A stretch of 20,107 nucleotides of DNA from a virus. Shown here one piece after another: positions 18,382-20,107 of the stretch. The position numbers and the translations under genes were made by a program. Location: the IMG/VR virus record IMGVR_UViG_3300025132_000412, positions 1 through 20,107 of that record. One strand, 5' to 3'. The notes under the pieces are model-generated. The model was not told the DNA's origin. It was given only the letters and a program-made list of their open reading frames with translations, and ran no database searches. The stretch's first letter is position 1, and every line of letters starts with the position of its first letter.

Positions 18382-18690
18382 ATGGCAACAAAAACTTGGC
18401 AAGTAAATACTCTTCAACGTGAACTAGCTGATGGGTATGTAAATAAAGTTATCTACCGTGTTAATGGTGAAGATGGTACTTATAAATTTAGAGCTACAGG
18501 TGAGGTTGATCTCCCTAAGCCTGATACTCTTGTTCCTTATGCTGACCTTACAGAAGCAACTGTATTAGGTTGGGTTAAGGCAAAACTAGATGCAGATAAC
18601 GCTGGTACTGTAACTGCAATTGAAACAGCTGTAGAGAACGGCGTTAACGAACAAAAAACCCCAACTACAGGTGTCGGCAAACCTTGGTAG
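18382..18690 (+). CDS. Small conserved cyanophage protein (DUF7936-like)
   Basis: A 102-residue protein starting MATKTWQVNTLQRELADGYVNKVIYRVNGEDGTY. Its visible pattern is a beta-rich N-terminal half (VIYRVNGEDGTYKFRATGEVDL), a Pro-rich turn, then the helix YADLTEATVLGWVKAKLD and a tail NEQKTPTTGVGKPW. I remember similar proteins next to fibre genes in many cyanophages, grouped as a domain of unknown function (I believe DUF7936). No enzymatic motif, signal or membrane span. It may be a minor structural or fibre-associated protein. The next gene starts inside its last 20 bases. Confidence 0.68.
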   Translation: MATKTWQVNTLQRELADGYVNKVIYRVNGEDGTYKFRATGEVDLPKPDTLVPYADLTEATVLGWVKAKLDADNAGTVTAIETAVENGVNEQKTPTTGVGKPW

Positions 18691-19072
18691 GATAAGAGTT
18701 CCTACTACTCCTACATCGCTACCCTCGATGCAAATCGAGTTCAAACCACCCACAGCGAGGTTTCCATCTTATAAACCAATGGTTATACCTCCGAGTGATT
18801 TGGAGTCACCAGAGGGAGTAGAAGCTGAAGCAACAGAACAACCAGAACCACCTAAATTACAAATACCTGTATTGGATATTCAAATGCCAATACCTGAGAC
18901 AGCAGTAGTTGTTACAGCTGTTACTACAGCAGTAGTGGCAGTAGCTACTACTTCTATCACTCAGTCTTTATTTGAACCAATTAAAAAGAAAGTACAGAAA
19001 TTCTTACAAGGGAAAATAGATAAATGGAAGCAAAAGCAACAGAAAAACCCAAAGGACTCTTTGGAAAGTTAA
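18671..19072 (+). CDS. Single-span membrane protein with Pro-rich N-terminus and basic tail
   Basis: A 133-residue frame beginning with GTG at 18671, 20 bases inside the previous gene. ATG at 18728 (residue 20) is the alternative start, and neither has a good ribosome site. I prefer GTG because GRIRVP and the Pro-rich run after it read like one continuous coding segment. Residues 11-76 are Pro-rich. Residues about 77-96 (TAVVVTAVTTAVVAVATTSI) are one membrane span. Residues 103-125 are strongly basic (KKKVQKFLQGKIDKWKQKQQK). By the positive-inside rule the N-terminus would face the periplasm. A lysis or envelope role is possible from position, not proven. Confidence 0.62.
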   Translation: MSANLGRIRVPTTPTSLPSMQIEFKPPTARFPSYKPMVIPPSDLESPEGVEAEATEQPEPPKLQIPVLDIQMPIPETAVVVTAVTTAVVAVATTSITQSLFEPIKKKVQKFLQGKIDKWKQKQQKNPKDSLES

Positions 19073-19323
19073 AAGAGAATGTAGACGATCATGAAGAACA
19101 GATGGTAATCCTTGGGGCTATGGTTCGTTTAGGAGTAGTCGTTTGGTCCGGATTTATCATTACTTTAAACTATGTAGAATTACCTATGTTTAGAAAGAGT
19201 CCAGGTGGGGATATTACATTTCCGGCTTCGATTTTTACAGGAGCCCTTGCAACATTTGGTTTGTCTACAGGTAATGGTAATGGTAAAAAGAACGGCAATG
19301 GAGACACTAAAGTAAAACAATGA
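19024..19323 (+). CDS. Two-span membrane protein, candidate class II holin
   Basis: A 99-residue protein overlapping the previous gene by 49 bases, with AAGGGA at 19008-19013 as ribosome site. A charged N-terminus (FGKLKENVDDHEEQ) is followed by a membrane span at about 27-51 (MVILGAMVRLGVVVWSGFIITLNYV), a short loop (ELPMFRKSPGGD) and a second span at about 64-81 (ITFPASIFTGALATFGLS). The tail is Gly/Asn/Lys-rich and hydrophilic. Two spans and this length fit class II holins, and T7 has its holin (gp17.5) in the same place, after the fibre. I recall similar uncharacterised proteins in cyanophages. Holin function is an inference from topology and context. Confidence 0.6.
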   Translation: MEAKATEKPKGLFGKLKENVDDHEEQMVILGAMVRLGVVVWSGFIITLNYVELPMFRKSPGGDITFPASIFTGALATFGLSTGNGNGKKNGNGDTKVKQ

Positions 19324-19691
19324 AAAAATGGATAATACTCTTAGCTCTGTTGTCACCCACAGCAGCAAGAGCAGAATTAGTAACCCCCAATTTCACACAG
19401 GGGTCAATGAATTCCACAACAACAACGACTCAAGAGATCGTCGAAGAAATAACGACGACCACTTATGGGTCTGCATTAAACAAATGGAGTGGCGAAAATA
19501 TCACTCATACATCAGCCTCATCAGGAGGATTAGTAGCTACAGATTCAATATTTACCCTAGATTCGGCTGGAGATCCTTTCTCTCTAGAGATAGTAGAAAG
19601 AGCAGCCAGTCAGGTATTATCAGTAGAAGTAATAGACAGAGAAATAGACGTTACTTCTACTACGGTCTCCTTATCAGTCTTCTCTCAGTAG
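19320..19691 (+). CDS. Small secreted Thr-rich protein of unknown function
   Basis: A 123-residue protein whose ATG overlaps the previous stop (ATGA). Residues 1-18 are a signal peptide (KK, IILLALL, then ARA before Glu19). There is no lipobox Cys, so it is not an obvious Rz1-type lipoprotein. The mature part has a Thr run (NSTTTTTQEIVEEITTTT, about 31-48), then a beta-type region ending DVTSTTVSLSVFSQ. I recall related proteins with the start TPNFTQGSM in cyanophages, all uncharacterised. Its last 70-odd bases also encode the signal peptide of the next gene in another frame. Periplasmic location and a link to envelope disruption are possible. Confidence 0.65.
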   Translation: MKKWIILLALLSPTAARAELVTPNFTQGSMNSTTTTTQEIVEEITTTTYGSALNKWSGENITHTSASSGGLVATDSIFTLDSAGDPFSLEIVERAASQVLSVEVIDREIDVTSTTVSLSVFSQ

Positions 19692-20107
19692 CTCCTGTAA
19701 GAGCTGAAGATGAGACGAATAACGTAAGTAATCCAGTAGCCGCTGCGACGGGAAATGTAACCAACCAAGCGGTGCAATTCCAAAACAATGGAGCACCGTC
19801 AAGACAGCACTACGGACCTAATATTTCGTGTAATGGAAGTACGATGACTTTCTCACCATTCTACATGGGAAATCATACGACTCCATTTGATGAGACTATG
19901 ACTCAACAGACCTATACGGTAGCTGAGAACTGGGGAGGTCAGATAAACTTCATGATCCCTTTAGATCGTGAAGGTTTGAATAGATGTCGCAGTATAGCGG
20001 CAAGACAGGAGGAGAAGATGCGCTTGGACTACGAGTTGGTTCGTGTCCTGAAATGCAGTGAGCTCCAGCAAAAGGGCTTCATGATATTGCCTAATACACG
20101 TGTCTAT
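19616..20107 (+). CDS. Secreted protein with no conventional start near its signal peptide (partial, runs off the window)
   Basis: The frame is open to the window end (164 codons from 19616). A good signal peptide is visible: a basic stretch (NRQRNRRYFYYG), a hydrophobic core (LLISLLSVAP) and VRA before GluAsp. The mature part includes NPVAAATGNVTNQAVQFQNNG, SCNGSTMTFSPFYMGN and a charged helix (RQEEKMRLDYELVRVLKC). No ATG, GTG or TTG lies in frame just before the signal peptide. The nearest rare starts are ATT 19616 and ATC 19619. The nearest ATG (19484) would add about 44 Ser/Arg-rich residues and overlap the previous gene by 208 bases. It probably continues past the right edge. Function unknown; similar proteins occur in cyanophages as I remember. 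Confidence 0.6.
   Translation, partial: MISRSNRQRNRRYFYYGLLISLLSVAPVRAEDETNNVSNPVAAATGNVTNQAVQFQNNGAPSRQHYGPNISCNGSTMTFSPFYMGNHTTPFDETMTQQTYTVAENWGGQINFMIPLDREGLNRCRSIAARQEEKMRLDYELVRVLKCSELQQKGFMILPNTRVY

Follow-up and report, generated by a model that had tools for sequence, protein, structure and literature searches.

Where does the second of two overlapping genes begin when no start codon lies close to its signal peptide? The question arises at one end of a viral DNA stretch of 20,107 nucleotides (IMG/VR record IMGVR_UViG_3300025132_000412, positions 1 to 20,107), analysed here in full and referred to as the window. The gene u (19320..19691, + strand) encodes a 123-residue, predicted exported protein of PHROG 650 with the putative signal peptide MKKWIILLALLSPTAARA; read to its end, the u frame gives DVTSTTVSLSVFSQ, followed by a stop. 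A second predicted exported protein is encoded by q (19328..20107, +) in the -1 frame relative to u; it corresponds to PHROG 848/1755, is supported by tblastn matches and continues in frame beyond the window end. The most hydrophobic stretch of q (19655..19705, +) comprises the hydrophobic core and cleavage-site region of its candidate signal peptide, FYYGLLISLLSVAPVRA. Mature q is predicted to begin near 19706 with EDETNN..., and its conserved domain then leaves the window. A first-pass annotation of this DNA had pointed out that no ATG, GTG or TTG closely precedes the signal peptide, and indeed none occurs in the q frame between 19484 and the segment at 19655-19705. The annotation took the second protein to have no normal start codon; this was not supported, and two ATG codons are present in the q frame. 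One, at 19328..19330 (+), lies 8 nt past the ATG of u, is formed from u codons K3 (AAA) and W4 (TGG) and is the top candidate for the q start in this clade. The other, at 19484..19486 (+), is formed from K55 (AAA) and W56 (TGG) and may be an alternative or secondary start.

u is located directly behind the gene for a 99-residue DUF6450 protein (19024..19323, +), whose gene family also contains T4-GC218 of P-HM1; in the ATGA at 19320-19323 the TGA of this gene overlaps the ATG of u. The DUF6450 gene in turn shares 49 nt with the gene for a 133-residue protein of PHROG 9426 that contains a single hydrophobic segment (18671..19072, +). The DUF6450 gene, u and q are packed so closely that they could be translationally coupled.

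Both u and q belong to existing families without assigned function (DUF6322; PHROGs 650, 848 and 1755). In profile searches, u matches PHROG 650 over residues 1-123 (E=3.2e-32). The window's u scores 17.3 bits against Pfam DUF6322 (PF19847), which is under the curated cut-off of 30.6, and 44 of 69 aligned relatives match this family at E<=0.01, the best at 1e-42. For q, the matches to PHROG 848 and 1755 have E=3e-49 and 2e-46, and no credible family was found in Pfam and NCBIfam. Judged by sequence, both proteins resemble Sec substrates, with an apparent signal-peptidase I site that reads AARA|E in u and PVRA|E in q. The AlphaFold model of u displays a long β-hairpin (pLDDT 81, pTM 0.38); a fold search with it returned no PDB match below 1e-3, and the best VIA-align hit (Z 4.1) was to the long hairpins of pore stems, a likeness that may reflect only the shared long-hairpin shape. 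The low-confidence model of mature q (pLDDT 65.5) consists of a β region and a long helix, predicted to span 36 residues. Its fold search yielded nothing below E=0.8, and comparison of the q profile with solved structures nothing below E=0.037. Four cysteines are invariant in the q alignment. In the window, the long form of q has cysteines at residues 49, 168, 220 and 243, none of which falls at the cleavage region, and u is devoid of cysteine.

The overlap of u and q in two frames is real and exceeds what chance would give. The q frame is free of stops across all of u, back past ATG 19328. When the u protein was held fixed and its codons were drawn from this phage's usage, none of 20,000 draws left the frame open from u+8, and 0.025% left it open from 19484; on shuffling u's own codons, these proportions rose to 0.85% and 14.5%, respectively. 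The longest -1 open run measures 122 codons in u, compared with a maximum of 48 among the window's other major genes. Moreover, 67 close relatives contain 0 stops downstream of ATG 19484, whereas 59 of the 67 would be expected to have one even if only the part between 19484 and the signal peptide is counted.

A tblastn search with mature q as query matched 345 phage records, all of cyanobacterial phages by name except two uncultured ones and one filed under a genus name. Six IMG/VR scans and 19 annotated records provided 435 loci with q, the window included. In 398 of them the conserved tail of u adjoins q; 393 of these have q in the -1 frame and the remaining 5 in the other. The pair occurs in T7-like and T4-like phages of Prochlorococcus and Synechococcus, which are abundant cyanobacteria of the sea. 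The other frame is used for q in P-SCSP2 and four related contigs; in P-SCSP2, u and q share 56 nt and the signal peptide of q is short and ordinary (MTRSTLLALSLLC...). Of 90 T4-like loci, 76 encode another small secreted protein, of the T4-GC237 type, in the vicinity of u; the T7-like loci yielded none. The 188-kb record NZ_RMVE01000006.1, filed under Nonlabens xiamenensis, contains u, q, a T4-GC237-like secreted protein and a DUF6450 gene in the arrangement of T4-like cyanophages, and is probably a co-sequenced phage rather than bacterial DNA.

For the analysis of start sites we used 300 unique loci with full-length u and with q in the -1 frame; these relatives are not independent samples. 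In each of the 300, the interval from the last in-frame stop to the signal peptide contains an ATG, GTG or TTG. As a rule, this codon is formed by a Trp codon of u, as TGG creates ATG, GTG or TTG when the preceding codon ends in A, G or T. Its position depends on the clade and, in columns of the u alignment, is 56 in phages of the window type, 70 or 78 in T4-like phages, 87 in P-SSP7 and many others, and 103 in the P-SSP3 type, so that the overlap ranges from ~64 to 364 nt. Stops observed relative to synonymous-codon shuffles (O/E) are generally close to 1 upstream of a clade's start and 0.00 downstream in nearly every cell. In the W56 group without the early ATG, the ratio is 1.65 before column 56 and 0.00 after it; in the W87 group, it is ~1 up to column 86 and 0.00 thereafter. 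The window's own group has 0.20 in columns 5-55 and 0.00 after column 56. Exceptions past column 87 are the T4-like phages (0.04), a group able to start at column 103 (0.53 in columns 88-102) and a mixed group (0.20, one stop, n=12). In the comparison of relatives, which the first-pass annotation had recommended for locating the second start, in-frame stops disappear, clade by clade, at an ATG, GTG or TTG codon. Comparison among relatives supports the q frame, its stop boundary, the association of this boundary with start codons and constraint on the q frame. On this evidence the start of q appears to differ by clade, the frame being kept open only downstream of the start in use, and u and q so read as an overprint that is old and almost complete, in which the q start has migrated.

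Which ATG operates in the window's clade can be approached through the Trp at u codon 4, which in this group creates the ATG 8 nt past that of u. A stop within u columns 5-55 occurs in 55 of 55 W56 relatives without this early ATG versus 10 of 91 that possess it. Close cultured relatives include NATL2A-133, P-SSP6, P-SSP10 and NATL1A-7, the first three of which have the early ATG with an open frame; P-SSP7 has GTG at column 87 and P-SSP3 ATG at column 103. Third-position T before AA, AG or GA is found at 3% in columns 5-55 versus 24% elsewhere in the early-ATG group, and at 67% versus 46% in the group without it. In each of the 55 sequences that lack the early ATG, the codon preceding W56 yields ATG, in 53 cases at a variable wobble site; given an early ATG and an open frame, the wobble of the column-56 start is relaxed (ATG 62, GTG 10, TTG 5, CTG 4). 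Fifteen sequences have no ATG or GTG at any internal site, and all 15 have the early ATG and zero stops across u. At four-fold sites, which carry no stop risk, the window's clade has a diversity in u columns 5-54 of 0.74 times that of mature q; in the four groups whose columns 5-54 fall outside q, the ratio is 0.94-1.06. Stop avoidance, the relaxed wobble at 19484, the reduced synonymous diversity and the 15 sequences without another ATG or GTG favour ATG 19328, and q probably starts there, either alone or together with 19484. The first-pass annotation, which had listed ATG 19484 with a long extension, was right to look to an upstream in-frame ATG, but the better candidate in this clade, ATG 19328, was missing from its list.

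Initiation of q at ATG 19484 only, with the openness of 19328-19484 inherited or incidental, is a possibility that we regard as rather unlikely. It agrees with the finding that no W56-type sequence has a stop past that codon, and it would place a less extreme 57 residues before FYYGLLISLLSVAPVRA; a signal peptide ~110 residues into a protein is unusual, which counts against a start at 19328. Furthermore, the ten of 91 early-ATG sequences with stops before column 56 must start at the equivalent of 19484. However, strong stop avoidance in columns 5-55 and reduced synonymous diversity are confined to the early-ATG clade, and it is in this clade that the wobble at 19484 is relaxed. In tree-based independent pairs of early ATG and open frame, about 5.0 of 9 were concordant and 0.6 opposite (median p 0.125), which is too few independent changes to be decisive. 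No Shine-Dalgarno-like motif precedes u, 19328 or 19484 in the window, as is the case for most genes of this phage.

The other options raised by the first-pass annotation, a non-canonical start, a frameshift or an error, are very unlikely even when taken jointly. An ATT or ATC start near 19613-19616, just upstream of the signal peptide, would give the latter an ordinary length, and the nearest canonical codon is only at ATG 19484. These codons are not conserved among relatives, though, and where relatives have a short signal peptide, the start is ATG or GTG; an ATT or ATC start would also leave unexplained why every W56 relative has stop-free codons from 19484, and we consider it highly improbable. 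Production of q by -1 ribosomal frameshifting from u would fit the -1 relation seen in 393 of 398 loci. Against it, u contains only partial matches to the slippery heptamer X XXY YYZ, the lack of a classic one having been correctly noted before. Five relatives have q in the other frame, and the boundary of the open frame shifts with the start codons between clades, which leaves frameshifting with a very slim chance. Lastly, the window is a metagenomic contig whose end q leaves, as might raise suspicion of a sequencing or assembly error. Such an error is refuted as the cause of the overlap, which is common to hundreds of independent contigs and to finished genomes of cultured phages, and its probability is close to nil. 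The same recurrence in independent records bears out the earlier description of two secreted proteins, secretion being predicted, in overlapping frames, as well as the accompanying argument against simple error.

We return to ordinary initiation as the preferred reading: very likely, u and q are separate Sec-exported proteins made from one DNA stretch, with q starting at an ordinary ATG inside u. The initiation of q and the export and cleavage of both proteins are steps that we infer. In the window's lineage q would most likely initiate at ATG 19328, with ATG 19484 as a secondary or alternative start. As the starts of u and q are 8 nt apart, they could use one common ribosome-loading site, and with a q start at 19328, 364 of the 372 nt of u would be double-coding. 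The q precursor would then comprise a basic N-terminal extension of ~109 residues (57 if made from ATG 19484) ahead of FYYGLLISLLSVAPVRA, after which signal peptidase may cut to free mature q (EDETNN...). Across cyanophages, the q start may have moved among the few Trp positions of u able to yield ATG, GTG or TTG. The signal-peptide zone is clearly constrained (synonymous diversity ratio 0.46) and the extension mildly (0.74-0.82). This mild constraint, together with the variation in extension length from ~10 to >100 residues between clades, would fit a tolerated n-region better than a conserved domain. Selection on the net charge of the extension was not clear (10.1 versus 9.4 in a codon-shuffled control).

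Our literature search found no paper on the u/q overlap or on the start of q. In GenBank, q starts at u+8 in NATL1A-7 and P-SSP6, at u+164 in P-SSP10, at column 103 in P-SSP3 and inside mature q in NATL2A-133 and P-SSP7; it is unannotated in S45-C4, and u is unannotated in NATL1A-7, P-SSP6 and P-SSP10. The annotated q starts disagree even between records of close relatives. Owing to these inconsistent starts and the omission of u or q from some records, both genes are easy to overlook, and for embedded or overlapped phage gene pairs databases often carry wrong starts (PMC6139136). The natural series of overlaps (~64 to 364 nt) with its migrating second start makes the cost and origin of overprinting measurable across hundreds of genomes.

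Among known systems, u and q resemble lambda Rz/Rz1 in being two small exported proteins, the second of which starts inside the first in another frame. Unlike that pair, u and q are both free of a lipobox cysteine at the cleavage site and look as if cleaved by signal peptidase I. Spanin identity by way of the lipobox of an o-spanin lipoprotein was rejected on the absence of this cysteine, and neither protein had a sequence or fold match to spanins. An i-spanin would have an uncleaved N-terminal anchor and a coiled coil in the periplasm; in q, a single N-terminal hydrophobic segment precedes a VRA|E that looks cleavable, and the 36-residue helix is predicted. A published list of phages that lack identifiable spanins includes P-SSP7, P-HM1, S-PM2 and Syn5 (PMC6139136), and an envelope or lysis role for u and q in phages listed in this way is a reasonable lead, but only a lead and of low probability; if true, it would bear on how such phages open the outer membrane. 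That u and q, with starts 8 nt apart in one initiation region, form together with the DUF6450 gene an exported envelope-disrupting module replacing spanins in marine cyanophages is unlikely. The other point of comparison is P-HM1, in which the DUF6450 gene is T4-GC218, u is T4-GC236 and q is T4-GC235. Sullivan and co-workers described a cluster of T4-GC 218/219/234/235/237 in marine T4-like cyanophages as a possibly mobile cassette (PMC3037559). In their account of this cassette, 235 is listed and 236 is not, and the u-q overlap and the start of q are not discussed; in P-HM1 itself, u and q overlap in a comparable way.
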